A stretch of DNA of 38,243 nt from a virus, in IMG/VR virus record IMGVR_UViG_3300025828_000061, positions 1-38,243 of that record; one strand, given 5' to 3'. The notes beneath the pieces are model-generated. The model searched no databases, was not told the origin of the DNA, and saw only the letters and a program-made list of their open reading frames with translations. A program made the position numbers and the translations under genes. Shown piece after piece: positions 5,461 through 31,986 of this stretch. How positions within the stretch are numbered: the first letter of the stretch is position 1; each line of letters opens with the position of its first letter.

Positions 5461-7602
5461 ATGGAAGAACAAATGGAACTCTTTGAAGACGGTGGTCTAA
5501 AAGATGAAGGTGGCATGGTAGACGAAGAATCAGGAAATGAAGTTCCTAGTGGTAGCACTAAAAAAGAAGTACGTGATGACATTCCTGCTATGCTAAGTGA
5601 AGGTGAGTTTGTTCTACCTGCTGATGTTGTACGTTATCATGGACTAGAAAAAATTATGCAGCTTCGTGATGAAGCTAAGTTTGGCCTAAAGAAAATGGAA
5701 GCTATGGGTCAAATGGGTAACTCTGACGAAGCTACATTAGATGATGACGTTCCATTTGGTCCTGCTGATCTTATTATTGTAGGTGCAGAACCTATGGAAG
5801 ATGAACCACGTGAGATGTATCAAGGTGGTATGGTGTACGCACAAGAAGGTACATTTGTAAAACCTTCTACAGGTATTGCTGGTTATCAACCTTCTATCTA
5901 TCAAGGTCAACAAACAACGGGAGCATATACTCCACCACCTAGTTCTGTTGCACCCCCTATTCCTGCACCTTCTCCTGCAGGTGGCTATGTGCCTAAGTTT
6001 GTTTCAAGTGGGCAAATACCTGTTGGTGTAGCTCCACCCCCTGTAACTCCAGCATCAAGTACTGATACTTCTGCAGTTAGCACAGCATCAACTGAAGATA
6101 AACCATTTGTTCCAACTGTAAGTGATGTATATACAAGTGTAGAGTACATTAATCCTGAAACGGGCGAACGTAGAATGTTTAACTTCTACAATGGGGCAGT
6201 AGTAAACGGTCCTATTCCAGAAGGGTTTATTCCTGTTACAGAATGGGAAGCTTCACAGACAGACACAGGAACAACCACTACAACAGGAACAGGTACTGAT
6301 GATACATCTGTAGCAACTACACAAGTTACAACAGATGATGGTGGTGCTCAAACTATTCGTGAGTTACAACAAAAACAACAGCAAAGAGAGTCTCAAGAAC
6401 TTAGCATTCAAAAAACAAATCTTTTACAAAAAGGTTCTGCTAATGATCTAGTAAGTGCATGGCTAGATAATAAACGTGTTCTTGGTGCAGGAAACGTAGG
6501 ATCATTCTTTAGTCCTCTTATAGGTGCGTTTACTACCGCAGCAGGACTAAAACAACAACGAGATTTAGAATCAGCTTTAACAGAACGATTTGGTGAAGAT
6601 TGGAAAACTACTGCTAAATTAACTGATGAAGTTAAAAAAGAACTTACTGAGTATGAAGAATCAGGAAAACTTCGTAATACTAAATTGTTTGGAAATAAAC
6701 TATTTGAAGATGTAAAGGCTGCAGTTTCTGGAATTAAAAATAGTTTTACTGAAGAAGGAAGACAGTCTTACTATGAAAATTATGCGTCTAGTGGACCTGT
6801 ACATAATGTAGCTGACAACACTTTGTCTGGTGGGGTTACAGGATTTGAAGCTGTAACAGACAGTAGTGGTGCTCTACAAATGAATCAACATGGTATGCCA
6901 CAGTCTTCAGGAAACCTATCTCTTAAAGAACAACAATCTTACGACAATGCAGTAAGAGATGGCAATGCCTCAGTAGCAAATCACCATGCAATTATTGCAG
7001 CGCATCGGGATAGACAAAACCAATATGCAGATGCACTTGCACGGGGTGATACATCCGCAGCCGCTGCTATTGGTGCAAATATGTCTGCTCAAAGTAGAGA
7101 TCAAGCGGAACGTTTTGGTGGCAGTGTGCATCGTGCATCAGAAAGTGGTACGGCATCAAAGAATACTTCATCTGGTCTTCAGTTTTTTTCTAAGTTTGTA
7201 CCCAATAATGACAATGATGGTGGCAGTGATACTGATAGTGATTCAGGCTCAAATACAGGAGGCTATAGCTGCTATGTAGCTACGGCACTTAATAATAAAG
7301 GATACTGGCCTACAGTTAAAAAGATGAAACTTATCAAGTGGTGCATGGATGCAAAACCAGAAGATAAATTTGATACAAAACTATGGCGCAATGGCTATAC
7401 AGTATTTGGTAAAACAGTTATTGCGCCTCACGTAGACAATAAAATTATTCAGTGGTTATCTGATGGTTTTTATGATTCCAGAGTTAAAAACAAAAAAGAC
7501 ATAAAATCTTTTACTGGCCTCTTATTTTTCTATATTCCATCATATACAATTGCACTATATAAAATGCTACGTAATGATCTAGTAGATATTGAAAGGACTT
7601 AA
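5461..7602 (+). CDS. Large virion-associated protein of unknown function with a CYVATAL C-terminal module
   Basis: The 713 residues fall into three parts. Residues 1-110 (GGLKDEGGMVDEESGNEVPS, then DDIPAMLSEGEFVLPADVVRY) form a conserved region I recognise from many uncultured marine phages. Residues 110-560 are low-complexity, rich in Pro, Thr, Ser, Gln and Gly, with a short MFNFYNGAVVNGPIPEGF motif at 239-256 also found in the 1087-residue protein at 23024. The C-terminus from C604 (CYVATALNNKG) is a Trp/Lys-rich globular module reminiscent of the CFIATAAYG-type tails of bacterial proteins. Its position between portal and scaffold suggests a head-associated role. The final 300 bases are AT-rich. 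AAGGA precedes the ATG. The function is unknown. Confidence 0.75.
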   Translation: MEEQMELFEDGGLKDEGGMVDEESGNEVPSGSTKKEVRDDIPAMLSEGEFVLPADVVRYHGLEKIMQLRDEAKFGLKKMEAMGQMGNSDEATLDDDVPFGPADLIIVGAEPMEDEPREMYQGGMVYAQEGTFVKPSTGIAGYQPSIYQGQQTTGAYTPPPSSVAPPIPAPSPAGGYVPKFVSSGQIPVGVAPPPVTPASSTDTSAVSTASTEDKPFVPTVSDVYTSVEYINPETGERRMFNFYNGAVVNGPIPEGFIPVTEWEASQTDTGTTTTTGTGTDDTSVATTQVTTDDGGAQTIRELQQKQQQRESQELSIQKTNLLQKGSANDLVSAWLDNKRVLGAGNVGSFFSPLIGAFTTAAGLKQQRDLESALTERFGEDWKTTAKLTDEVKKELTEYEESGKLRNTKLFGNKLFEDVKAAVSGIKNSFTEEGRQSYYENYASSGPVHNVADNTLSGGVTGFEAVTDSSGALQMNQHGMPQSSGNLSLKEQQSYDNAVRDGNASVANHHAIIAAHRDRQNQYADALARGDTSAAAAIGANMSAQSRDQAERFGGSVHRASESGTASKNTSSGLQFFSKFVPNNDNDGGSDTDSDSGSNTGGYSCYVATALNNKGYWPTVKKMKLIKWCMDAKPEDKFDTKLWRNGYTVFGKTVIAPHVDNKIIQWLSDGFYDSRVKNKKDIKSFTGLLFFYIPSYTIALYKMLRNDLVDIERT

Positions 7603-8080: not shown

Positions 8081-8953
8081 ATGTCAGAGAACATGGAAGT
8101 AATGGCTTCAGAGGTTGAAGCACCAAAAAAAGTAGCATTTGCCAATCGTAAGTACTCAAATGCAGATCGTATTAAAAAAGAAGAAGAAGAACTAGAACAG
8201 CTTATTGCTGAACAAAAAGGTGAAGCAGTTCAACAAGAACCACAAGAAGCTGAACCTGCTAATGCTGAGGAAAAAAGTTTTAAGAAACGTTACGGTGACC
8301 TACGTAGACACCAACAACAAAAAGAAAAAGAATACGAAGATCGTATCAAAGCTCTTGAAACACAACTAACTCAGGCAACTAATAGTGAGATTAAACTACC
8401 AAAGTCTGATGAAGACATTGAAGCTTGGGCAACTAAGTATCCAGATGTAGCTGCTATCGTCGAAACTATTGCAATTAAAAAAGCAAAAGAACAAGCACAA
8501 GGTCTTGAGGATCGTGTTCGTGAGATCGACGAAATGAAAGCAAATGCAGCACGTGAGAAAGCAGAAGTAGAACTTCTAAAGCTGCATCCAGATTTTGGTA
8601 CTATTCGTGACAGTGATGACTTTCATGAGTGGGCAGAAGAACAACCTAAGTGGGTTCAAGATGCTCTTTATGAAAATGATGCAGATGCACGTTCTGCTGC
8701 ACGAGCAATTGATTTGTATAAAGCAGACCGTAACATTACAACTAAAAAGTCTGCTACAGCAAAAGATGCTGCACGTTCTGTGGGAGCACGGAATGAACGT
8801 AGTAAGCCGAACTCAGACGCAATGAGTGGGGCTATCCGAGAATCCGATGTCCAAAAGATGTCGGCTACCGAGTACGAAAAGAATGCTGACGATATCATGG
8901 AAGCTATTCGTACAGGTAACTTTATTTACGATTTATCTGGTTCAGCCCGATAA
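8081..8953 (+). CDS. Scaffolding protein
   Basis: A 290-residue, highly charged and mostly helical protein directly upstream of the major capsid gene, the usual place of the podovirus scaffold. It has long Glu/Lys/Gln-rich stretches with coiled-coil character (about 28-45 and 75-105), a middle with ELLKLHPDFGTIRDSDDF typical of phage scaffolds, and a C-terminal basic region before a short Tyr/Ser/Arg end. It would guide procapsid assembly and then leave the head. AAGGA lies 8 bases before the ATG. The assignment is based on composition and position. Confidence 0.82.
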   Translation: MSENMEVMASEVEAPKKVAFANRKYSNADRIKKEEEELEQLIAEQKGEAVQQEPQEAEPANAEEKSFKKRYGDLRRHQQQKEKEYEDRIKALETQLTQATNSEIKLPKSDEDIEAWATKYPDVAAIVETIAIKKAKEQAQGLEDRVREIDEMKANAAREKAEVELLKLHPDFGTIRDSDDFHEWAEEQPKWVQDALYENDADARSAARAIDLYKADRNITTKKSATAKDAARSVGARNERSKPNSDAMSGAIRESDVQKMSATEYEKNADDIMEAIRTGNFIYDLSGSAR

Positions 8954-18993: not shown

Positions 18994-21900
18994 ATGAGTA
19001 AGGCAAGAGATTTAGCAGACTTTATTTCCACTGGAAGTATTCTCTCTGATGGTACTATTGAGTCTACTGAGATCAGTGGTGTTACTGCTGATGCTACAGA
19101 GATTAACAAACTAGATGGACTGACTGCAGATACAGCAGAGTTGAACAAACTAGATGGTGTAACAGCTACTACAACTGAGTTGAACAAACTAGCTGGTACT
19201 ACTGCTACAACATCTGACTTTGACAAACTGTCTAACGTTACTGCTTCAGCTACTGAGTTGAACTATATGAGTGGTGCTACTAGTTCTGTTCAGGATCAGC
19301 TAGACAACATCAGTGTCACATCTGGTAGCCTTACCAAGTCATTTACGAATGGTGAGACAGCAAGCATTACTCTAAGTTCTGCACTCTCTACTGCCCCTGT
19401 TGTTGGTGTTACTAAGGAAGTAGCACAGACAGGTATTTCCTCTAAGGGTGCTTGGGATGTAAATGCTACAGCGTCTAACTATGAACTGCATAACACTGCG
19501 TATGATACTACGTTGGCTAAGAGTAGTGTTGCTGTAGCAAATATTTCTGACTTTACAGACGCAAGTAAAAACTTTCAAACTAGTACGTTTGGTGCTTCCC
19601 CTAATCCTTTCTTTAAAACAGATGGTACAAAAATGTACATTTGTAGCAGAGCAAATGCTTTTGTGTATCAATACTCATTATCAACAGCTTGGGATGTTAG
19701 CACTGCTTCTTATGATAACAAATCCTTTTCAACTAATGCACAAACTAGCGAGGGTGATCCTACTGACCTATTCTTTAAACCTGATGGCACTCTTTTATTT
19801 GTAGTAGGCCAAGGTAATGATCAGGTGTATGCGTATAGTCTTACAACAGCTTGGGATATAAGCACTGCATCTCCTACTGCGTCTAATTTTATGTCTACAG
19901 CTTCACAAGAAACTGCACCTAGAGGCATATTCTTTAAGTCAGATGGAACTGTTATATACGTTGTTGGTGGCAACGGGAATGCTACTTTCTACTACACTAT
20001 GTCAACTGCTTGGGATTTATCTACAGCTAGTTACACAGGTAGCATTAATACTGCTACAGAAGATAACGGCCCTAATGGTATTAACTTTAATTCCTCTGGA
20101 ACTAAAATGTATCTATTAGGCGGTAGCAGCGGAAATGGAAAGATATTCCAATACAATTTAACGACAGCTTGGGACTTAACAACTGCATCTTATAGTAGTA
20201 ACTTTTTAGATATAACTGGTTATACCAGTGGCGGTGTTGCAAAAGGTATTGCTTTAGTTGACAACGACACAAGGCTTTACTTTGGGGCGGGTACATCTAA
20301 CCCTGCTTACGTTCATCAACTTGATGGCTTCTCAAATGCCCTTGCCCTAGGCACAGGCTCCTTTGCTTCCACAGACGTAGGCAAACGCATTCAAGGTAAT
20401 GGCGGTGATGTAATTCTTACAAGCACTGCGGGTGCGTATGACATTACAGGTGGATCAGACTTTACTGACACTAGCACTATTGCGTCAGGCTCTTGGACTA
20501 TGCATGGGCTAAAGTCTGCGGGTGCTACTGATGGGCTTACTATTACAAGTATAACTGGGGCGGGTTATGATGTAGCAAATGCTAGTTACACAAACAATTA
20601 CTATGACACTCCAGACTCTAACTCATTACAGGGTATTTTTGTAAACGAAGCTGGCACTAGGCTTTACAAAAATGATAACTCAGCAAATGACCTTTGGGAG
20701 TACTCATTAAGCACTGCACATGATATTACTACGGCAAGTCAGACAGGTAATAGAATTGCTTATAGTGGTGTTGGGCCTGGTGAATCAGATATGAGGGGTA
20801 TGAGTTTTAAGCCAGATGGTACACGTTTGTATTTAAGTGGCTCTGACCACCACAGAATTTATATGTATAATATTACAACTGCATTTGATTTAACCGTCAA
20901 TGCCTATGCAGGTAGTGCTTATGTTAATACCTCACATCAATTTCCAGGTGGCATTGCATTAAAACCAGATGGTACAAAACTATTTCACACTTCAGGTGCA
21001 AGTAACCAAGTAGCACAATATACACTAGGTAATCCTTGGGATTTTAGTAATAATGTAACCTTTAACGGTGCTTACAATGCGGGAGCACAATTAAGCTCTC
21101 CATCTGACGTTAAGTTTAATGATGATGGTACTAAAATGTATGTACTTGATGCTACAAGTAAACGCTTAGGTATATACTCTCTATCAACAGCGTACACTAT
21201 TACAAGTGGTGTAACACACGATGGCAATTTAGATTTAAGCACACACGCAACAAATCTATTTGGTTTATCATTTAGTGACTCTGGTGCAAATATGTATATA
21301 GGTGGTAGTAATGGTAATGTTTATCAGTATGCCACACAAGAAGTAACAGCCCCCACATCCTCATACCACATAGCAGCCACTAACTCAGGTGGACAAATCA
21401 GTACTGAATACTGGACTGACATCAACAGCATGACAGCCGATCAGTCGCTTGGTGATGGTGAAGCATACTATGCAGTATCCACAGATGATCGCACTACTTG
21501 GTCAGTCGCAAAGGCAAGCGATGGTGTTCGTCCTATTGTGAGAAATAATGCGGGTACTTGGCAGTATAATAGTGATGCGGGAAGCACTACAACTTATGAT
21601 ATTTCTTCTCCTACTCATGTGCAAGATTTTGATATAAGTGGATATAGTACTGACCCTTACGGATTAACTTTTAAACCAGACGGCACTGTAGTTTACATTG
21701 CAAGTGATAGTGGCAATAGAGTTATCCAACAGAATTTAACTACTGCTTGGGATTTGAGTACTATGACTGCGGCCTCACATGGCGGCATATTATCAACAAA
21801 TTCTCAAGAAACTGCGCCAAGCGGAGTTCAACTAAGTTCCGATGGAACAAAAGCATATGTTATTGGCACTGCTAGTGATACCATATACCAGTATACCTTG

Positions 21901-22725
21901 ACTAACGCTTGGGATGTTTATCCTAGCTCATATGCAAATAAATCTTTTAGTGTATCTAGTGTAGGAGAAACTTTACCTAATGATATTTTCTTTAAGCCTG
22001 ATGGAACAAAATTGTTTATGGTAGGTAAAACTACCGACAAGGTTCATGAGATTACTTTAACTACAGCTTGGGATATAGATACAGCAAGCTTTTCTGGTAA
22101 TGACTTTAGTGTTGCTTCCTACGAGACTGGGCCGCAAGGTTTATCATTTAGTTCTGATGGTACTAAAATGTTTACCGTAGGAATAAACTATGTAACTGAG
22201 TGGGCGTTAAGTACAGCTTGGGATATAACAACAGCTTCATATGTAAGAGCTTATGATTCAAGCGCACAAGAGACAGACCCACACGCAATAGCATTTAAAT
22301 CAGATGGTACAAAAATGTATATCATGGGTTCAGTGCAAGATAATATAAGTGAATACAATGTAAGCAATACTTCTTACACCACCTCAACAACATGGACTAA
22401 CGCCACAACTAACGATGAGTTCTATGCATTACAGCAAGCACTAGGTGCAACTGAGTTTAACCGCATGGACAAGACGCAGCTAGACGCAGTAGCAGATGGC
22501 TCTCACTTCACGTTAGGCGATACGTTGGACTTGGCTATTGCACTCAAGCAAGACACTGCATCAGCATCACTGCCTACGTCTGACGGTGTAAGCATTAACT
22601 ATGATGCAGAGGCACTCAACCAAGGTGCTGTACTAGGGACAGACTACGACTATGACTTCCCTGATAGCACAACGGTTCGTATCACTTCTAATGCAGCACA
22701 GAACTTGAAGATACGTGTAGTATAA
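18994..22725 (+). CDS. Giant tail fibre with three groups of five propeller-like blades
   Basis: A 1243-residue protein. Residues 25-100 hold ATELNKLDGVTA-type repeats found in cyanophage fibres, then a beta segment (115-195). From 204 onward there are fifteen blades of about 50 residues with the pattern F(K)xDGTxxYxxG...VYQYxLxTAWDxxTAS, in three groups of five (204-445, 545-785, 887-1125). Between groups lie two non-propeller inserts, one with DVGKRIQGNGGDVILT (461-476) and one with TDINSMTADQSLGDGEAYY (808-826). A GC-richer C-terminal domain (1130-1243) closes the protein. The blades probably present ligand-binding surfaces for host recognition. It is the last gene of the adhesin section. 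Confidence 0.83.
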   Translation: MSKARDLADFISTGSILSDGTIESTEISGVTADATEINKLDGLTADTAELNKLDGVTATTTELNKLAGTTATTSDFDKLSNVTASATELNYMSGATSSVQDQLDNISVTSGSLTKSFTNGETASITLSSALSTAPVVGVTKEVAQTGISSKGAWDVNATASNYELHNTAYDTTLAKSSVAVANISDFTDASKNFQTSTFGASPNPFFKTDGTKMYICSRANAFVYQYSLSTAWDVSTASYDNKSFSTNAQTSEGDPTDLFFKPDGTLLFVVGQGNDQVYAYSLTTAWDISTASPTASNFMSTASQETAPRGIFFKSDGTVIYVVGGNGNATFYYTMSTAWDLSTASYTGSINTATEDNGPNGINFNSSGTKMYLLGGSSGNGKIFQYNLTTAWDLTTASYSSNFLDITGYTSGGVAKGIALVDNDTRLYFGAGTSNPAYVHQLDGFSNALALGTGSFASTDVGKRIQGNGGDVILTSTAGAYDITGGSDFTDTSTIASGSWTMHGLKSAGATDGLTITSITGAGYDVANASYTNNYYDTPDSNSLQGIFVNEAGTRLYKNDNSANDLWEYSLSTAHDITTASQTGNRIAYSGVGPGESDMRGMSFKPDGTRLYLSGSDHHRIYMYNITTAFDLTVNAYAGSAYVNTSHQFPGGIALKPDGTKLFHTSGASNQVAQYTLGNPWDFSNNVTFNGAYNAGAQLSSPSDVKFNDDGTKMYVLDATSKRLGIYSLSTAYTITSGVTHDGNLDLSTHATNLFGLSFSDSGANMYIGGSNGNVYQYATQEVTAPTSSYHIAATNSGGQISTEYWTDINSMTADQSLGDGEAYYAVSTDDRTTWSVAKASDGVRPIVRNNAGTWQYNSDAGSTTTYDISSPTHVQDFDISGYSTDPYGLTFKPDGTVVYIASDSGNRVIQQNLTTAWDLSTMTAASHGGILSTNSQETAPSGVQLSSDGTKAYVIGTASDTIYQYTLTNAWDVYPSSYANKSFSVSSVGETLPNDIFFKPDGTKLFMVGKTTDKVHEITLTTAWDIDTASFSGNDFSVASYETGPQGLSFSSDGTKMFTVGINYVTEWALSTAWDITTASYVRAYDSSAQETDPHAIAFKSDGTKMYIMGSVQDNISEYNVSNTSYTTSTTWTNATTNDEFYALQQALGATEFNRMDKTQLDAVADGSHFTLGDTLDLAIALKQDTASASLPTSDGVSINYDAEALNQGAVLGTDYDYDFPDSTTVRITSNAAQNLKIRVV
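19603..22368 (+). repeat. Fifteen propeller-blade repeats (3 x 5) within the giant fibre
   Basis: Blade starts at about residues 204, 256, 309, 360, 414; 545, 600, 651, 703, 755; and 887, 942, 995, 1047, 1096. The fifth blade of each group lacks the TAWD end. The DNA repeats are diverged, with short identical runs coding DGTKMY and TAWD. Confidence 0.75.
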
Positions 22726-22756: not shown

Positions 22757-23011
22757 ATGAGTGACATCAAACTTTCTCCAGAAGAAATAGAAGATATGCT
22801 AGATCGTGCAGCTAGGCGTGGGGCTAAAGAAGCCCTACGTTCTATTGGCTTACTAGACGATGATGCACATAAAGATATTACAGAGATGCGTAGCTTGTTG
22901 GAAGCATGGCGTGACACTCGTAAGTCTATCTGGTCTACAATAGTAAAATTAGCTACCGTTGGAGTCCTGACATTTATTGCAGGTGCGGTATGGATGACAA
23001 TGGGTAAGTAA
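22757..23011 (+). CDS. Small membrane protein, DUF6127-like
   Basis: An 84-residue protein. The N-terminus is acidic and helical (LSPEEIEDMLDRAARRGAKE), followed by GLLDDDAHKDITEMRSLLEA and one hydrophobic segment at about 60-80 (WSTIVKLATVGVLTFIAGAV). This plan matches the DUF6127 family of small phage-associated membrane proteins common in alphaproteobacterial phages and gene transfer agents. A holin or a membrane anchor for ejection is possible; the family has no established function I know. There is no clear ribosome site before the ATG. It lies between fibres and ejection proteins. Confidence 0.65.
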   Translation: MSDIKLSPEEIEDMLDRAARRGAKEALRSIGLLDDDAHKDITEMRSLLEAWRDTRKSIWSTIVKLATVGVLTFIAGAVWMTMGK

Positions 23012-23023
23012 AGGTAAAGTATT

Positions 23024-26000
23024 ATGGCAGAAGATAACAACATTCCAGCATGGGTAGACCCTGACTACGGATATAATCCTGCTAGCCCACGTAAGCCTAA
23101 CATGCGTGAGATGATGGAGATGATCGCAGGTAAATCTGTGGAAGAAATCTACGCTTCTGGTGAAGACTATAGTGACATAACCCGTTTAGCTTCTGATTTA
23201 TTGTATGGTAGTGTAGGCTCTAACGAAGATACTCGTGACTTTACTAAGATTACTGAAGTAGCTACTGATCCTGCAACTGGACAGATTGATGCAGATAAGT
23301 TTGTAGCTGCTACACAAATTGCTACATCACAAATGTATGGTGGTACTACAGTTAAGTATCAATCAGGTGGCTATGAAACAGACGAAGCAGGTAATACTGT
23401 AATTGATGATGCGGGTAATCCTGTAGAGCTACCACCTAGTTTATATATTGTGGGTGGCAATGGTACAATTTTACGTGGTTTGTCTGGTAATGCAGAACAA
23501 ATGACTAAACAGTTGACTACCTTTGGTGTACAAACAACTGATTGGACTGGTGATGCAATGAATGCAATGCAACAGTCTGGAATAGATCAAGATAAACTAC
23601 AAACTTATTTAAATACATTTGGTGAACTTACTAACACATATACTCCTTGGGATAACTACCAAGATATATGGGCAGAGGAAGGTTTAGTTAGTGGTGTTGC
23701 ACCTATGATAAATAACTTTCAGATTGTGTCTGGGCAAACTCTTAGTGGTACAAGTACAGGTACACAAACTACGCAAACAGGTACTAGTGCTACACAAGTA
23801 ACAGGTGATCAGACACAACAACAAACAGGTACAGATACAGATGCTGTGTCTATGGCTGCTAATCAAGCTGTAACTACACCTCAACAACTACCTCAGACTG
23901 TATCTTACCAAATGCCACAAGGTTATCAAGGCTCAGGATTTATGCCTACGTACATGGATCAAACAGGTATGGGTATGCAAACTCTTACAATGTCACCTAC
24001 GACAGGTACAGGCATGATGAATTATCAGCCTACACAAACATATACTATGGGTCAACCTATGATACAAGCACCTCAAGTTACACAACCTCAACAAGCAGAA
24101 GTACGCATGTATCGTAATAATGCGGGTATGACTACTAGTATTACATTTGTAAATGGACAACCACAGACACCAATTCCGTCTGGGTTCTATCCTGTAGATC
24201 AACAACCTGCAGGGCAGATGCCATATCAACCACAGGTTCCTCAAGTGCAAGCACCTACACCACAACCAGTAACACCTTACACACCTCAGTTTAACATGAA
24301 CCAAGGGGGTATTGTACCACCAATCCCTACACCTTCAGGTAATAAGTTTGGTGGATTTAAACCAGAGGCATTGCAACGTATTGCACAGAACCTTGGTTAC
24401 TCAGGTGACATGGGTGGCTTTGATCAATACTTGAATGATAATCCAGATAAGAAACAAAAGATGGATAACTACACTACTCGTGCTCGTCAAATGGCAGAGG
24501 GTGGTATGGTTAAGAAGTATGCAAATGGGGGTGACACTACAACTGTAGACATACAACAGTACGATCCTCGTGTACTAAATCAACAGTATATTCCACAACA
24601 ACCTGACTTAACAGGCTTAGATTTACCACAAGTACAAGCACAGTTAGCTAAAACACCAGGGTTACCTACTGGTGCAACTGTAGTTCCAACTGGTACTCAG
24701 CTAACTGCAGGTCAACTTGTATCACCTTACTCAGGTCAAGTAGCAGGATCACTAGCACTACCTACTGCACTAGCTGCAACTCAACAAGCTATGATGCCTA
24801 TGACAGGACAGGCAGCTTTGATGTCACCAGTAGAAGCTGCAGGTGCTGTTGGTGCAACTGTAGATCAAACACAGGCGGCACAGTTACAGCAAATTGCAGG
24901 TATTACTGCAGCACAACAGCAAGGTACATCTGTAGCTAATGTAGAAGCTGCACAGGGTACAGGTATCTTGATGGATAATCCTGTACAACGCCAGATACAG
25001 AATGGTGAACTTATTTCTGGTGCAGCTAATGCACAAACTGCTGCTGCATTTAACGAAGAGATACAAGCCGCAACTGCTACACCTACTAAACAAGCTACTG
25101 TACAAGGTCAGCTAGAAACATTAATGGCTCAGTTTGAAGGCGGTGAAACACCTGCATGGGCAGCAGGGTCAATGCGTAATGCAATGGCTACATTGTCTGC
25201 ACGTGGGTTGGGAGCATCTAGCTTGGCAGGTCAAGCTGTAATCCAAGCTGCTATGGAATCTGCATTGCCTATTGCCCAGATGGATGCACAGGTAACTGCA
25301 CAGTTTGAACAACAGAACTTGTCTAATCGTCAGCAACGTGCTATACTTGCTGCACAACAACGTGCAACATTTATGGGCATGGAATTTGACCAAGCATTCC
25401 AAGCTCGTGTAGCTAACGCAGCTAAGGTTAGTGATGTTGCAAACATGAACTTTACTGCTGAACAACAAGTAGCATTAGAGAACTCACGTATTGCAAATAC
25501 AATGAACCTAAACAATCTGGCTAACTCACAGGCTGTAGTTATGGCAGAGGCAGCGGCACTAGCCAACATGGATATGGCTAACCTTAGCAATCGTCAACAA
25601 GCTGCTGTACAGAATGCTCAGAACTTCTTGCAAGCTGATCTTAGCAACTTGTCTAATCAACAACAGACAGAATTGTTTAAGGCACAACAACGTGTTCAGT
25701 CACTGTTCACTGACCAAGCTGCACTTAATGCTGCACAGCAGTTTAATGCTACGTCACAAAACCAAGTTGATCAGTTCTTTGCAAGCTTACAGAGTAACAC
25801 TGCACAGTTCAATGCTGCACAATCTAATGCACAGGCTCAGTTTAATGCAGGTCAGGTCAATGTTATTGAACGATTTAATGCAGAGATTAACAACCAACGT
25901 GATCAGTTCAATGCACAGAACCGTTTGATTATTGATCAGTCAAATGCTCAGTGGCGTAGAGAGATTGCTACAGCAGATACAGCAGCGGTTAACCGTGCTA

Positions 26001-26287
26001 ACGAGATTAATGCTCAAGCATTGCTAGGATACTCACAGTCTGCGTATAACAACTTGTGGCAATACTATGCAGATAATATGGAATGGGCATGGACATCTGC
26101 CGAGAATGAAAAAGCTAGAATTATGAACTTGGCTATAGCACAAATGAATGCAGACTCACAGGCTGATCTTGCAAAAGCAAAAGCTGATTATGAATCATCT
26201 GCAGGTATTGGCTCTCTTGTAGGCAAAGTTCTTACATCTGACTTAACAGATACACTAGCTGGTAAAATTCTAGGTGGAATATTTTAA
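23024..26287 (+). CDS. Large Gln/Asn-rich virion protein, putative ejection protein
   Basis: A 1087-residue protein. Residues 1-240 look globular (MREMMEMIAGKSVEEIYASG). Residues 240-540 are Gln/Thr/Pro/Met-rich and disordered, with a MYRNNAGMTTSITFVNGQ motif (about 361) shared with the 713-residue protein and GGIV/GGMV motifs. Residues 765-982 are a continuous run of 11-residue repeats rich in Ala, Gln and Asn. The C-terminus ends in an apolar stretch (IGSLVGKVLTSDLTDTLAGK). Its size, helical repeats and position next to two more large internal-type proteins suggest an ejection protein crossing the envelope during infection, although a head-inner or tail role is possible. AAGGTAAAG lies upstream of the ATG. 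Confidence 0.7.
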   Translation: MAEDNNIPAWVDPDYGYNPASPRKPNMREMMEMIAGKSVEEIYASGEDYSDITRLASDLLYGSVGSNEDTRDFTKITEVATDPATGQIDADKFVAATQIATSQMYGGTTVKYQSGGYETDEAGNTVIDDAGNPVELPPSLYIVGGNGTILRGLSGNAEQMTKQLTTFGVQTTDWTGDAMNAMQQSGIDQDKLQTYLNTFGELTNTYTPWDNYQDIWAEEGLVSGVAPMINNFQIVSGQTLSGTSTGTQTTQTGTSATQVTGDQTQQQTGTDTDAVSMAANQAVTTPQQLPQTVSYQMPQGYQGSGFMPTYMDQTGMGMQTLTMSPTTGTGMMNYQPTQTYTMGQPMIQAPQVTQPQQAEVRMYRNNAGMTTSITFVNGQPQTPIPSGFYPVDQQPAGQMPYQPQVPQVQAPTPQPVTPYTPQFNMNQGGIVPPIPTPSGNKFGGFKPEALQRIAQNLGYSGDMGGFDQYLNDNPDKKQKMDNYTTRARQMAEGGMVKKYANGGDTTTVDIQQYDPRVLNQQYIPQQPDLTGLDLPQVQAQLAKTPGLPTGATVVPTGTQLTAGQLVSPYSGQVAGSLALPTALAATQQAMMPMTGQAALMSPVEAAGAVGATVDQTQAAQLQQIAGITAAQQQGTSVANVEAAQGTGILMDNPVQRQIQNGELISGAANAQTAAAFNEEIQAATATPTKQATVQGQLETLMAQFEGGETPAWAAGSMRNAMATLSARGLGASSLAGQAVIQAAMESALPIAQMDAQVTAQFEQQNLSNRQQRAILAAQQRATFMGMEFDQAFQARVANAAKVSDVANMNFTAEQQVALENSRIANTMNLNNLANSQAVVMAEAAALANMDMANLSNRQQAAVQNAQNFLQADLSNLSNQQQTELFKAQQRVQSLFTDQAALNAAQQFNATSQNQVDQFFASLQSNTAQFNAAQSNAQAQFNAGQVNVIERFNAEINNQRDQFNAQNRLIIDQSNAQWRREIATADTAAVNRANEINAQALLGYSQSAYNNLWQYYADNMEWAWTSAENEKARIMNLAIAQMNADSQADLAKAKADYESSAGIGSLVGKVLTSDLTDTLAGKILGGIF
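25316..25969 (+). repeat. About nineteen hendecad (11-residue) repeats
   Basis: Twelve in-phase 11-residue units run from residue 765 to 896 (NLSNRQQRAIL, AAQQRATFMGM, EFDQAFQARVA and so on), then a 9-residue unit, then seven units from 906 to 982 such as QFNATSQNQVD, QFFASLQSNTA, QFNAAQSNAQA, QFNAGQVNVIE and RFNAEINNQRD. The period implies a long amphipathic or right-handed coiled-coil helix. Confidence 0.8.
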
Positions 26288-26299
26288 AGGGTAAGTAAA

Positions 26300-26497
26300 A
26301 TGTATAACGTAGGATTTCAAACAATGAATAATCTAGTCTTGCCTCGTGAGGAAAAGACACAACAAGAAACAAGTACGGGTTTACTTGCACGTAATATGCC
26401 CAGTAAACCCAAGACAAGTGAGCAACAAGTAAGACAACGTGTTGCAAACTATGTTTCTCAAATACGTAAAGCAAGAATGGAATTAAAAAATGGTTGA
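26300..26497 (+). CDS. Small basic protein of unknown function
   Basis: A 65-residue protein starting MYNVGFQTMNNLVLPREEKT, with a polar, probably disordered N-terminal half and a basic helical C-terminus (RQRVANYVSQIRKARMELKN). I know no function for it. Its stop overlaps the start of the next gene by 8 bases, and it sits between the large Gln-rich virion protein and other virion candidates, with AAAGGGTAAG upstream. The frame is supported by tight packing rather than by family knowledge. Confidence 0.6.
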   Translation: MYNVGFQTMNNLVLPREEKTQQETSTGLLARNMPSKPKTSEQQVRQRVANYVSQIRKARMELKNG

Positions 26498-27005
26498 TAC
26501 TCCTAGCCCAATGCTTGACGCACCTATTGCAGGTCAATCTCTTACTGCAGAGTTAGGTAATAGACCTTGGCAACAGCCTCCACAGTACACAACTGTAGAA
26601 GAGGCACTAGAGTTTTACGTACCTCGTTTAGCTAACCCTGAAACACTAGATGATTTATTTGACGTAATGGAAACTGGCGTACCTTTAACCACCATTGCTA
26701 ATGCAATGCAAAGTGCGGGTGTTATGGAAGGTAAGCATAGCCTTGATGTAGGCATTCTTATCATGCCTGTGCTTATTGAAACTATGGCATACTTAGCTGA
26801 AGAAGCTGAGGTAGAATACACTGCAGGTTCTAACGTTGAGGTGGGTGCAGATAAACCTTCACAACCCGCTGTTGCTCTTGCACTGTCTAAAGTACGTGCA
26901 GAACAGGGTCAAGAGCCTGAAGAAGAACCAATGCCTGAAGAGTCAGAGCAAATGGAAATGGAATTAGAGCCACCCAGTGGTGGTTTGATGTCACGGAGAA
27001 CATAA
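26490..27005 (+). CDS. Conserved marine phage protein of unknown function
   Basis: A 171-residue protein. The pattern PIAGQSLTAELGNRPWQQPP, then TTVEEALEFYVPRLANPETL, VMEGKHSLDVGILIMPVLIE and a final GGLMSRR is familiar from many marine podovirus and cyanophage genomes, where the protein lies in the structural region without a known role. It is acidic, helical in the middle (45-110), and has a Glu/Met-rich disordered C-terminal part. The overlap with the preceding gene and the one-base gap to the next one show cotranscription. A virion component or assembly factor is plausible. Confidence 0.72.
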   Translation: MVDTPSPMLDAPIAGQSLTAELGNRPWQQPPQYTTVEEALEFYVPRLANPETLDDLFDVMETGVPLTTIANAMQSAGVMEGKHSLDVGILIMPVLIETMAYLAEEAEVEYTAGSNVEVGADKPSQPAVALALSKVRAEQGQEPEEEPMPEESEQMEMELEPPSGGLMSRRT

Positions 27006-27006
27006 G

Positions 27007-28206
27007 ATGGCGTTTAATTTTGGTGCATTTTTAGGTGGTATGTCACGACAAATTGTCAAAGGCATAGAGGAAGAAGAAGAACGTCAGTTTAAGTTTGATA
27101 TGCTTGCTGAAGAAGAAGCTACACGTATGCGTTTGTCACGTGCCAGTGAACGTAGGGCAGAACGTAAGGCACAAAAAGAGCAAGCTGGTTTACTTAAAGC
27201 AATGGGGTTTTCAGATGCTAAAGCTGCATGGATCATGAAGGGTGGTGCTGCTGCAGTAAACAAATATGTAGATTACGCAACTGCTGCACAGACAAGGGGC
27301 ATTGATCCTGATACAATGTTAGACAGTAGTCTATTTTCATCTGACCAAGAAGACCCTCGTAATGAGGCAGCTATGGCTGCAAGCCTTGGACAACCACGTA
27401 AATACGATACCACTGAACCTTTTAGTATTGACACCGATATAATGACAAGTGTTCTTGGTGAAATTAAAAAGCCAGAGAAACCAAAAGAATATAGTAGTCT
27501 TGAAGCAGGACACGCAGGTACATTTAGCTTGTTACAGGCAGCTAAAGCAGATGGTGATACGGCAGAGGTAACACGACTAGAAGGTGTACTAAAAGAATGG
27601 CAAGCTAAGATTAATGAAGCTAACCCTGAAGTAAAAGACGAAGTATCTTGGTTCAATGAGGATTCACGTTCACGTGTTATACGTGACTCACTTGCTCTTG
27701 CTAGACAGGATCAAGAGTTTAGTGTGGATATGGATGGTAATATTACAAGTAAGTTACAAGGCCGTGAAGGACCAGCAGCTATTGCGAAATTAAATGCTGC
27801 AGCAGACATTGCAAACATTGCTAATGTTGCTGATGGAGTAGTAGATGAACGTCTTATGTCGCAAGCAAATCAACTAAAGTCTTCTGCTTTCAATGCACTA
27901 GATAGATTTGGTCAACGAGTTGCCAGTACTGCAGGTGAAGCTAAAGATATTTCAAGCTATGGATATTTTAAAACTACTAAATCAGAATCTGGTGAAATGC
28001 AAACACAGCCATTTCTTGCTGAGATACAAAAAGCTAATCGTGGTGCCTACAAAGCAGGTGATGTTGTTCTAGTACAACAAAAAGTAAACGGGGTAATGAC
28101 TACTCGTATTAAAGTTTACACAGGCATACCTGTAGCAACAGTACAATATCAAAATAGAACTTTGTATGATTACTTCCATGACGCAGGTGAGTATATAACA
28201 GATTAA
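27007..28206 (+). CDS. Putative internal virion (ejection) protein, 399 residues
   Basis: It begins MAFNFGAFLGGMSRQIVKGI, then a charged helix (EEEEERQFKFDMLAEEEATR, about 22-41) with coiled-coil character and basic Arg/Lys-rich continuation. A Gly/Ala segment MGFSDAKAAWIMKGGAAAVN follows at about 66-85, and the rest is mixed helical. The N-terminus with a Gly-rich apolar start resembles internal virion proteins. It is sandwiched between two large probable ejection proteins and has close gene spacing. I do not recognise a specific family. Confidence 0.55.
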   Translation: MAFNFGAFLGGMSRQIVKGIEEEEERQFKFDMLAEEEATRMRLSRASERRAERKAQKEQAGLLKAMGFSDAKAAWIMKGGAAAVNKYVDYATAAQTRGIDPDTMLDSSLFSSDQEDPRNEAAMAASLGQPRKYDTTEPFSIDTDIMTSVLGEIKKPEKPKEYSSLEAGHAGTFSLLQAAKADGDTAEVTRLEGVLKEWQAKINEANPEVKDEVSWFNEDSRSRVIRDSLALARQDQEFSVDMDGNITSKLQGREGPAAIAKLNAAADIANIANVADGVVDERLMSQANQLKSSAFNALDRFGQRVASTAGEAKDISSYGYFKTTKSESGEMQTQPFLAEIQKANRGAYKAGDVVLVQQKVNGVMTTRIKVYTGIPVATVQYQNRTLYDYFHDAGEYITD

Positions 28207-28215
28207 AGGCACAGT

Positions 28216-31200
28216 ATGGCTGATATAAATCCTTTCTTTTCTCGTGAAAAGACAGAACCTACACTAGGTGCAAAACGTGAAACACAACAGGTTAATCCTT
28301 TTCTTACACGAGAAGGAAACACTAGTGGTTTGCCTACATTAAATATTGAAGATATTTCTGGTGGCAATGCTGTAGCTGAAGCTAGTGAAGAAGAAGTTAT
28401 AGAAACAAAACTAGAACCTGTAGGCACTACTGACTTTGATGATGCGGCACGGTTTATTCGGGACGTAGGTGAGTTACGTGGTGACACAGTAAACATACAA
28501 GAAGAACTTATTAACATTGCTGATCCTGATGTTGAGTTTTCTCAAGAGTACTTAGATGAAAACATTGAAAGACTTCTGCCCCCCGAAGTTCCTGCAGAAG
28601 AACTTGCAGATGTATCCGAGCCTACACCTGAACCTGTATCTGAACCCCCTGTAACGGATGACCTTGAGGCCGCAGAACCTACTGTTGAATTAACGTTTGA
28701 TGAACGTTTAACTACACTACTTGATGCTGAGTATGATCGTATTGAGGAAGATGAAAAGTTTCAACAGGTAATTGAGGCAGAAGCAAAATATCTCTTAGGT
28801 TTTTATGAAAACTATATTCCTAATATACAAAGACGAGTTACAGCAGGTGTTATTACCCAAGAAGAGGCAGATAGACGTATAGCTGAAGGAATGAAAAACT
28901 TCCAAGAACAAGAAGGTTTAGGTATTGCAACTGTTGCATCTAATATTGAAGACGCACGTGAGCTAGTACGTAATAAATACTATGACAGGGCAAACAAACT
29001 AAAAGCTAAGACACTAGCTCGTCTTGAAAACCGTAATGTTGTAACGAGAAACTTATCCAGTACTCTATTAGAACAGGTAGAAGACGGTAACCTTACATTA
29101 AACCAATTAAATCTTATTGTTGGATTAGACGAATGGTTTGATCCAGTCACTACTGCTGTAGAAATACCACACAACTTTGCAGATGTACAAGAAAGTATTC
29201 GTGATGGTGACTTAAAAGGTGCTGCAGTAAATAGTGGTATAGGAGTACTAAACATTGTTGCGTCTATTCCACTTGCTAAACTATTTACTAAAGGTATCAG
29301 TAGTGGTTGGAAAGCATTAAGTGGTGGCAGGGGTGCATATCACGATGTGCAAGAGGCTCTTGCCAGAGAAACAGATCGTGCCATTGAGATACGTAAAGTT
29401 GCCGCAGACACTGCCAATAAAAACAAAGACATTCGTAACCAACTAATCAGAGAGTTTGAAGAACGTTTTAAAGTTACTATCTCTCAAGCAGATGAGGCTG
29501 GTGATCTTACGGTTGACCCACAACTAGTACGTGAGACAGGCAAGAAGAAAGTCAGTGAATACTATAGTGACATGGGTTATGTAGGCAATGATGGTAAGAC
29601 TGTCAAACTTACAGACTATGCAATCAATGATGACTCACTTGCTATACCTATCCTTGATCCAGAAAAGATGGATATGTTTGTGGCTACAGTCGCAGGGCTA
29701 AAGAATAACCCTGAGTTTGCTAAAGCATTACAAACAACTGGAGATGAACGTCTTGTAGATAAGTTATTTGACTTAACATTAAACAAAGAACTATTAGGAT
29801 CAGAGGAACTTCTTAGTGAACTAACAAAGAATGGTCTGTCATTTGAAGAATACGTTCTTGGTGTTGTTGGATCAGGATCACAAGCTGGTAAGTTACTTAA
29901 CCAGTTGTCGCAGATTAAACGTTACAAACCTGCAAGTGTAAAAGAAGCACAAGAAGTACGTGCTAAAGTAGAAACACAGAAAGCATTAGGTAAACTGTGG
30001 GCAAGTACGGTATTACGTACAGAAAATATTCGTCGTGGCCTTATGGTTTCGTCACTAGCTACTGCTGCTCGTAACCTTCAGTCAGCAGGTATTCGTGCTC
30101 CTATGGAATCACTAGCAGATGTAATGGACACTGCTATCATTACTTATGGTAAGGCTCGTACCTCTGGTAAGACACGTGCAGATGCAGTCGCAGACTTTGC
30201 AAGTTCCATCAATCCACTTGTACGTGACGGTACATGGTCAGGTGCATTCAACAACATGCGTTATATGTTCATGGAACAAGGACGTGCAGAAGAGTTTACT
30301 AATTACATTCTTGATCGTCCTGAACTTGCAGAACAGTTTGAACGTATGTTCAACAACATTAATGAAATCCAAGAATATACAGGCCGTGGTCAGGCACAGA
30401 CACTAGTAGGTAAAGGCGCAGATAACGTTGCATCACGTGTGGAAGATTTTGTGTGGGCAGTCAATGGACCTAACCGTTGGCAAGAACACATGGTACGCCG
30501 TGCTACATTCCTTGGTGAACTAGAACGTCAGGTTAAACTTAACTGGGACATGGACTTACAGACTGCCTTGAAAGAAGGTAAGATACAGGACATGCTAAAC
30601 GATGCATCTAATGTTCGTCCTGAAGGTGGTACATCGTTCTTGACTATGGTTGAGACTGCTACAAACAAAGCACTGGATGTTACGTATGCCAAGCAGCCTG
30701 ACTTTGCACCATTCAAAGCTACGTCAGAGGCTATAACTAAATCTGGCCTTACTGTTGTAGTACCCTTCCCTCGTTTTATGTTTAACTCAATGGAATACAT
30801 GGCACAGAATGCAGGTGGTGCATTGCTTGTACCTATTCGTAAGGCTGTAAGTAAAGAGTCACGTGCTGCAGGGCTTACTGCTCGTGATCGTCAAGACATC
30901 ACACGTAACTTGGTAGGCATTGCGACTATGGCATCTTACTATCAGGTACGTAAAGAGTTTGGTACTGAGGATTACACATCTGTAACCTACGAAGATCAAC
31001 AGGTTGACTTATCTGCACAGTATCCTATGCGACAGATTGGTTGGGTTGTTGAGTTTGAAAGACGTAGACAGGAAGGTACTCTAGAAACATGGTACGGCAT
31101 GGACATGGAAGAGATTACCGAAACATGGCTAGGTACTAACGCACGTACAGGTACAGGTAACGTATTCCTTGAAGAGATCATGGCAGGTATACGTGGCACT

Positions 31201-31986
31201 GAGGACATTATTGACGATGAAAAACGTTCTAAAGCAATCGGACGTTTTGTTGGTCAGTATGCAAACACTTTCTTGACACCCATATTCCAGATGGCAGAGG
31301 CACAACGTATCCAAGGCATTCGTGGTGAAGAAGCTAAAGACTTCAAAGGAAGTATCACACGTGAAGCTGATCTGCCTTATGCAGGTGAGTCAGCATTTGT
31401 CCGTTCATTCTATGAACAGATGGCACAACGTGGGTTAGCTGCACCGTCATTTGAGGAAGAGCTACCACAACGTGTATCCATTGATCAAGGTAAAGTACAA
31501 CGCCCAGATAGTGGTGCGAGGCTATATGCGGGTCTTACACTACGGGAACGTGATTCAGATGTACGTGAGTACCTGAGAGAGATTGGCTACTCTGACGCAA
31601 CGTATCAGCTTGGTAGTAAGTCACGTATACCAGAGAATAAAATTGCTGAGAATGAATTTATCAGTAACATATTCCCTACAATGGTAAACTTAGCAAAAGA
31701 ATTTGCTACTTCTGAAGGTAAAACTAAAAAAGAGCAGCATATTATTGCACGTAAGTTTATCAAAGAGGCAGCTACAGATTTACGTGAAGAGTTTAATGAC
31801 CCTGCACTGGGTGGTGCATCACCACTTGCGATTGTTGCGGATCAGCTAGGACGTTTATCTAAAGAAGATCGTGCCTACGGTATACAAATGTTTAAATCGT
31901 ACAACGAAGGACGACTGCCTGACATAACTAGCTTACAGAATATGAATGCAGTATTAGAATACAGTAAAATGTCATTCTTAAAGTAA
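28216..31986 (+). CDS. Very large internal virion / ejection protein
   Basis: A 1256-residue protein at the end of the structural module, the usual place and size of the largest ejection protein in short-tailed phages (T7 gp16 is about 1300). The N-terminal 170 residues are acidic and disordered and repeat a NPFFSREK / NPFLTREG motif (6-13 and 27-34). Long helical regions follow, with an apolar stretch at about 335-365 (NSGIGVLNIVASIPLAKLFT) and another at about 840-880 (SGLTVVVPFPRFMFNSMEYM), possibly membrane-inserting. I see no transglycosylase or peptidase motif. It ends at the bidirectional terminator. The role is inferred from place and size. Confidence 0.65.
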   Translation: MADINPFFSREKTEPTLGAKRETQQVNPFLTREGNTSGLPTLNIEDISGGNAVAEASEEEVIETKLEPVGTTDFDDAARFIRDVGELRGDTVNIQEELINIADPDVEFSQEYLDENIERLLPPEVPAEELADVSEPTPEPVSEPPVTDDLEAAEPTVELTFDERLTTLLDAEYDRIEEDEKFQQVIEAEAKYLLGFYENYIPNIQRRVTAGVITQEEADRRIAEGMKNFQEQEGLGIATVASNIEDARELVRNKYYDRANKLKAKTLARLENRNVVTRNLSSTLLEQVEDGNLTLNQLNLIVGLDEWFDPVTTAVEIPHNFADVQESIRDGDLKGAAVNSGIGVLNIVASIPLAKLFTKGISSGWKALSGGRGAYHDVQEALARETDRAIEIRKVAADTANKNKDIRNQLIREFEERFKVTISQADEAGDLTVDPQLVRETGKKKVSEYYSDMGYVGNDGKTVKLTDYAINDDSLAIPILDPEKMDMFVATVAGLKNNPEFAKALQTTGDERLVDKLFDLTLNKELLGSEELLSELTKNGLSFEEYVLGVVGSGSQAGKLLNQLSQIKRYKPASVKEAQEVRAKVETQKALGKLWASTVLRTENIRRGLMVSSLATAARNLQSAGIRAPMESLADVMDTAIITYGKARTSGKTRADAVADFASSINPLVRDGTWSGAFNNMRYMFMEQGRAEEFTNYILDRPELAEQFERMFNNINEIQEYTGRGQAQTLVGKGADNVASRVEDFVWAVNGPNRWQEHMVRRATFLGELERQVKLNWDMDLQTALKEGKIQDMLNDASNVRPEGGTSFLTMVETATNKALDVTYAKQPDFAPFKATSEAITKSGLTVVVPFPRFMFNSMEYMAQNAGGALLVPIRKAVSKESRAAGLTARDRQDITRNLVGIATMASYYQVRKEFGTEDYTSVTYEDQQVDLSAQYPMRQIGWVVEFERRRQEGTLETWYGMDMEEITETWLGTNARTGTGNVFLEEIMAGIRGTEDIIDDEKRSKAIGRFVGQYANTFLTPIFQMAEAQRIQGIRGEEAKDFKGSITREADLPYAGESAFVRSFYEQMAQRGLAAPSFEEELPQRVSIDQGKVQRPDSGARLYAGLTLRERDSDVREYLREIGYSDATYQLGSKSRIPENKIAENEFISNIFPTMVNLAKEFATSEGKTKKEQHIIARKFIKEAATDLREEFNDPALGGASPLAIVADQLGRLSKEDRAYGIQMFKSYNEGRLPDITSLQNMNAVLEYSKMSFLK

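Follow-up and report, generated by a model that had tools for sequence, protein, structure and literature searches.

The window, meaning the whole stretch of DNA that was analysed, is a 38-kb virus record (38,243 nucleotides). Its gene order is that of an HMO-2011-type podovirus, an abundant type of marine virus infecting bacteria, of which it is a fragment. The gene under study is an ORF of 1087 aa (23024..26287; all coordinates written with two dots are on the plus strand), which was assigned by homology and by three conserved anchors to the family of Roseobacter phage CRP-1 gp35 and Puniceispirillum phage HMO-2011 gp25. The encoded protein, here termed the array protein, is 96% identical to CRP-1 gp35 over the full length and carries all three anchors; HMO-2011 gp25 is its counterpart from about residue 441 on. 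For relatives from named phages the annotation is "hypothetical protein" or an uninformative name. For the window array protein, PHROG and Pfam searches gave no family above cut-off and a PDB sequence search gave no significant match.

The protein begins with a variable, Gln/Thr/Gly/Pro-rich extension (residues 1-440, 23024..24343), delimited by homologues that align from about residue 441 and missing in HMO-2011 gp25 and many relatives. It is followed by a linker (residues 441-690, 24344..25093), conserved in the homologue alignment but of low complexity, which includes EGGMVKKYANGG and is modelled with low pLDDT over the portion covered (641-690). A helical N-domain (residues 691-761, 25094..25306; PAWAAG...RGLGASS...ALPIA) has conserved columns, an invariant anchor and a pLDDT of mostly about 90. 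The N-array (residues 762-893, 25307..25702) comprises six putative 22-residue helix-loop units, delimited by autocorrelation, an N-cap profile, the model of a relative and length steps. A conserved junction (residues 894-918, 25703..25777; LFTDQAALNAAQQFNATSQNQVDQF) contains the middle HMM anchor, found in 242 ORFs. The C-array (residues 908-1006, 25745..26041) holds nine QFNA-type hendecads, assigned to one continuous helix by autocorrelation, a comb of covariation peaks and the spacing of the last two anchors. A long C-terminal helix was predicted for residues 1005-1071 (26036..26236; pLDDT about 62-85), with a conserved W...WxW, and a short Gly/hydrophobic tail ends the protein (residues 1072-1087, 26237..26284). 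In some relatives a Peptidase_S74 or other module stands in place of this tail, and C-terminal modules seem to be swapped among array-protein relatives. The C-terminus of HMO-2011 gp25 is a different, Trp-rich module (CWVAREVYG...). A 713-aa ORF elsewhere in the window (5461-7602) has a terminal module (CYVATALNNKGYW...) that recalls this alternative C-terminus, and has no Pfam match.

Upstream of the array gene lies a gene for an 84-aa DUF6127 protein (22757..23011; Pfam DUF6127, 4e-24), which is not a constant partner, with a homologue in 21 of 200 loci. Before it, a 1243-aa tail-region protein (window 18994-22725) shows repeated beta-propeller-like blocks (FKPDGTKMY...) with weak SGL/propeller Pfam matches; in CRP-1, the genes at this position differ in size. 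Downstream, a 65-aa gene from the ORF list (26300..26497), in the same order in CRP-1, separates the array gene from a gene for a 171-aa protein (26490..27005). The 171-aa family has no annotation (consensus GQSLTAELGxRPWQxPPQY...GVMEGKH). Since a homologue of it follows in 209 of the 210 loci with enough flank, it is a likely partner of the array protein; co-occurrence thereby names a near-obligate partner. Next come a 399-aa protein placed by synteny (27007..28206; about 400-930 aa elsewhere, homologue in 92/183 loci) and a 1256-aa protein (28216..31986; homologue in 57/66 loci), a candidate large ejection protein whose homologue in Slicky01 matches virion structural PHROGs. TALE-repeat matches of the 399-aa profile were rejected: the total E was about 1e-7, no single stretch was significant, and the similarity lay in a short GFSxAxxxxIxxGG-like motif. 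The recurring order is tail genes, array protein, small gene, and proteins of about 170, 400-930 and 800-1400 aa. Phages infecting SAR11, Vibrio, Aeromonas, Pseudoalteromonas and Rhizobiales share it, some of them carrying additional genes within it.

An earlier note, made from the letters of this DNA, had described an unbroken array of about nineteen hendecads at 25316-25969. This segment corresponds to residues 765-982 of the ORF, and its 11-residue periodicity was borne out by autocorrelation. With BLOSUM scores, z values of 5.9, 7.7, 4.4 and 6.5 were obtained at lags 11, 22, 33 and 44, and identity autocorrelation peaked likewise at these lags. Each peak was reached by no more than 1 of 1000 shuffles that kept the composition, and by none at lags 11, 22 and 44. 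Lags 10, 12 and 13 were lower than the shuffle mean, and residues 1-700 had no comparable autocorrelation peak.

Periodicity was then compared across 235 ORFs carrying all three HMM anchors, which are PIA of the N-domain (residue 749), QFNA of the junction (residue 908) and WRR (residue 977). The first anchor distance equalled 5 mod 11 in 235/235 ORFs; for the second, 234/235 gave 3 mod 11. The total anchor distance took 16 values from 151 to 778 residues, which are not all independent events, related phages sharing lengths. Spacing between the last anchor and the stop codon served as the control and took 51 values scattered over all eleven classes mod 11. The phages that follow the rule infect Roseobacter, SAR116, SAR11, Vibrio, Aeromonas, Pseudoalteromonas and Rhizobiales. 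The array protein contains two repeat arrays that share one 11-residue register and differ in length by whole units only; the sole exception among the 235 ORFs (L110) carries a single additional residue close to the C-array end. This residue lies at about residues 583-594 of the L110 array ORF (NSNLAIEQ).

A biased Ala/Gln/Asn-rich composition might fake such repeats. Composition is indeed biased here, but shuffles of the same composition never match lags 11, 22 or 44, and the register is conserved in 235 homologues while the control tail is scattered. Because the register is kept across the family the periodicity is not chance, and a low-complexity artefact is refuted, its probability being negligible.

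A 9-residue skip at residues 897-905 had been read as a phase break between two halves. A conserved Asn column occupies positions 765 + 11k up to 996 in a single register, and Asn peaks at the same phase in 235/235 homologues, so that residues 897-905 are no phase break; the apparent skip arose because NLSN was aligned with QFNA two residues apart. Two halves do meet at a junction there, differing in repeat type and not in phase.

In the N-array the repeating unit is 22 residues long. Family-wide identity was 0.27, 0.23 and 0.26 at lags 22, 44 and 66, and 0.16, 0.14 and 0.16 at lags 11, 33 and 55. The consensus is NL(S/D/N/T)NxQQAA(L/V/I)xNAQxxxxMDMA. In the 22-residue profile, the N-cap residue is Ser/Asp/Asn/Thr in 93%, preceded by Leu/Phe in 86% and followed by NxQQ; Gly reaches 13% at one position of the predicted loop and at most 3% elsewhere, and Pro is not found. 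Of the 14 length classes of the N-array, 13 have an even number of hendecads.

AlphaFold2 models were obtained for single chains of the window fragment 641-1087 and of a long relative with 31 N-units (L228); as monomer models they carry no information on oligomeric state. In the window model the N-domain is confident (about 90) and the array all-helical at low confidence, with pLDDT in the N-array mostly 36-70. The relative was modelled as 16-residue helices and 6-residue loops per 22 residues, with a pLDDT of about 70-93 across some 550 residues and a shorter helix in every fifth unit. The helices of the window model at 790-806, 812-824, 856-869 and 878-896 match the register of this model. 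Short helices and loops at a fixed period, as in an alpha-solenoid, are thus seen in the prediction for the relative and in the sequence profile, the model of the window itself being of low confidence. Profile and models together give good support to describing residues 762-893 as six predicted 16-residue helices joined by 6-residue loops, better than as one helix, and the N-array as a solenoid-like stack of such units. Fold searches of the PDB returned nothing significant (best E for the solenoid 5e-3, a designed protein).

The C-array differs from this pattern. Family-wide identity was 0.25, 0.24, 0.24 and 0.24 at lags 11, 22, 33 and 44, as for a true 11-residue repeat, and its lengths include odd as well as even hendecad numbers. 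Within the window's length class (84 sequences, effectively about 40), covariation as a function of residue separation had a period of 3.75 residues (0/5000 permutations); the period was 3.65 in the next length class (p = 0.002). In the C-array, peaks were found at separations 4, 11, 18, 22, 26, 30 and 33, and the comb of 11, 18, 22, 26, 30 and 33 suggests one continuous hendecad helix. In the N-array of the same class peaks appeared at 3, 4, 7 and 14 with no clear comb beyond, and pooling of classes gave weaker peaks at 11 and 22. Covariation between neighbouring helices was too weak to separate parallel from antiparallel packing. A single continuous hendecad helix is accordingly well supported by sequence and model for residues 908-1006. 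The helical nature proposed in the earlier note is supported, and its hendecad coiled coil fits this part; its unbroken 218-residue helix is not supported, as the 22-residue unit, the N-caps and the helix-loop model point elsewhere for residues 762-893. An 11-residue periodicity does not necessarily mean one long helix.

Several other structural readings were discarded. A beta-solenoid, raised by a 2.75-residue Fourier peak, conflicts with the covariation period of 3.65-3.75 and with both models, which are all-helical. Helical wheels of the whole array (two uncharged stripes, a Gln-lined side, a barrel-like arrangement) were dropped because they combine N-array residues from helices with others from loops and the hydrophobic moment is nil. 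The pooled array has no hydrophobic face (moment p = 0.99), which speaks against an amphipathic membrane helix for the whole array, as had been considered; in the C-array, F, L/N and I/V share one side of an 11/3 helix, which is suggestive only (moment p = 0.09). Hairpin pairing between both arrays was rejected because the N-array varies ten-fold in length and the C-array is mostly constant.

Repeat number does vary among homologues, from 12 to 69 hendecads. Computed from anchor distances, the N-array holds 2, 3, 4, 5.5, 6, 9, 11, 14, 16, 19, 21, 24, 26 or 31 units of 22 aa per protein. Two series with a step of five can be recognised (6, 11, 16, 21, 26, 31 and 4, 9, 14, 19, 24), with 2, 3 and 5.5 outside; the N-array changes almost solely by 22 residues, often by 110. 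Most arrays of at least 21 units have an identity of 0.37-0.61 at lag 110 versus about 0.28 at lag 22, and because of this excess their growth looks like duplication of 110-residue blocks. Tandem 110-residue blocks 44-61% identical were seen in L228, L197, L161 and other long-array loci with 26-31 N-units. If five helices form one superhelical turn, which is a guess, length would change only by whole turns and the ends would not be rotated relative to each other.

It had been argued that the helix, at 33 nm, could span the Gram-negative envelope. This argument fails because array length follows neither host nor genome size: it varies five-fold at similar genome size and differs within one host strain. 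Records of 52-58 kb cover most of the array-length range, array lengths differ widely even among genomes of 52-56 kb, and a genome tape measure is out. Among phages of Roseobacter strain FZCC0040, CRP-3 and CRP-212 have 3 units and CRP-207 has 5.5, and a host-envelope ruler is likewise out. Array length would instead be set by unit duplication, not by a fixed host or capsid distance.

The same data bear on the proposal that about 19 hendecads form one helix of 33 nm, and that this builds a tube or lining through which DNA enters, like phiX174 H. The H protein contains hendecads and heptads and forms a 170 A tube in which 18 of 23 lumen residues are N/Q/R (PMC7354561), and is a precedent. The array is also amide-rich, its Gln residues cluster on one side when drawn on an ideal wheel (p = 0.034), and its second half looks like a continuous hendecad helix; judged by what H displays, such a helix is indicated for 908-1006 and not for 762-893. 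An N-cap every 22 residues, the loop Gly, the 22-residue unit, the lack of a clear covariation comb past about 14 and the helix-loop model of the relative argue against a single helix through both arrays. As straight helices, 12 hendecads would measure about 20 nm and 69 about 114 nm, longer than heads of 70 nm (PMC8528129). We consider a tube of this kind from the whole array quite improbable; by analogy, an H-like DNA tube from the C-array is possible.

The position of the gene bears on function. In order and sizes, the cassette resembles the P22 7-20-16 and T7 14-15-16 cassettes. No homology of the array family to P22 gp7 or T7 gp14 was detectable (hhalign probability 0.1-0.3%), and the cassette neighbours that were compared with P22 gp20 and T7 gp16 showed none either. 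For lack of detectable homology the array protein was not filed under the gp7/gp14 family. The earlier naming as an ejection protein is upheld in that cassette order and partner probably fit an ejection-type virion cassette, and falls short where homology to gp7/gp14 is concerned. The array protein probably resembles an ejection protein in its mode of action and in its place.

A Peptidase_S74 C-terminus is present in the array-protein relatives from CRP-3 (locus L092, 3395-5254), CRP-738 (L096, 1783-4197) and CRP-212 (L098, 2131-3915). This domain is common on tail fibres, as PHROG tail-fibre matches indicate, and the array gene comes after tail-fibre genes. The arrays might accordingly be the coiled-coil shaft of an external trimeric fibre, stalk or tail needle, capped by S74 in some phages. 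Fibre shafts often differ in length by whole repeats. However, Pfam found no Peptidase_S74 domain in the window protein, and most named-phage members scanned are likewise without it; no receptor-binding domain was seen, and the downstream cassette is like ejection cassettes in order and sizes. Moreover, gp7-type ejection proteins carry S74 tails too. AH02 gp11 shares 32% identity with P22 gp7 when four sequences are aligned, directly precedes a P22-like injection translocase and, once S74 is removed, matches phrog_598 ('DNA ejection', 7e-14). Matches of CRP-3-type relatives to phrog_4287 ('DNA ejection') and phrog_6121 vanish on removal of S74 and were not taken as homology. Overall, a fibre appears unlikely, though it deserves some weight.

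An internal assembly or scaffold factor, organising the core or portal vertex and not ejected into the host, would also suit the near-obligate neighbour (209/210 loci), which suggests a complex; solenoid scaffolds bind partners. A scaffold-like ORF already precedes the coat gene (8081-8953), and we rate this reading as rather improbable.

We infer a virion location, an oligomeric state and a function for the array protein. It would be carried inside the virion as one component of an ejection-type cassette, its gene filling the slot of P22 gp7 and T7 gp14, with the 171-aa protein bound to it. Its hendecad helix and C-terminal helix would oligomerise in parallel, possibly as a trimer, because the C-terminus of some relatives is a Peptidase_S74 chaperone, known examples of which are trimers. 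The helix-loop stack could then serve as an extensible scaffold or sleeve of an internal core or DNA-delivery conduit. This joint account, of an in-register stack and hendecad helix in an ejection-type virion cassette, forming a parallel oligomer and an extensible scaffold or sleeve, has in our judgement an about even chance of being correct. The bolder version, a DNA-delivery protein built as an alpha-solenoid extensible by five-helix (110-residue) blocks and continuing in register into a hendecad coiled coil, is rather improbable. In either case, the strict length rule provides a natural variant set (12 to 69 hendecads) for testing the role of length in a putative virion protein.

Among known systems, CRP-1 gp35 and HMO-2011 gp25 are closest, with arrays as in the window (6 N-units, and 6 hendecads between anchors) and a similar cassette; unlike the window protein, HMO-2011 gp25 is without the 440-residue N-terminal extension and has a different C-terminal module. 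The array gene shares with P22 gp7 and T7 gp14 a slot ahead of one mid-size and one large cassette protein, but its product is much longer. An S74 C-terminus is shared by some array-protein relatives and some gp7-type proteins (AH02 gp11, Salmonella phage 7-11 gp20), whereas no such repeat arrays were seen in P22 gp7, AH02 gp11 or 7-11 gp20. In order, the array cassette is also like SU10 gp20-24, five consecutive ejection genes whose proteins are present in full virions and absent after genome release (PMC9509320). The predicted stacking of short helices is shared with designed helical repeat proteins and natural alpha-solenoids, from which the N-array differs by its 22-residue one-helix unit and 110-residue super-repeat. 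With phiX174 H the array protein has in common a hendecad helix, a richness in amides and a proposed DNA-delivery context; it differs in that half of the array consists of predicted helix-loop repeats, in lacking a PDB sequence match and in the phage types, which are unrelated.
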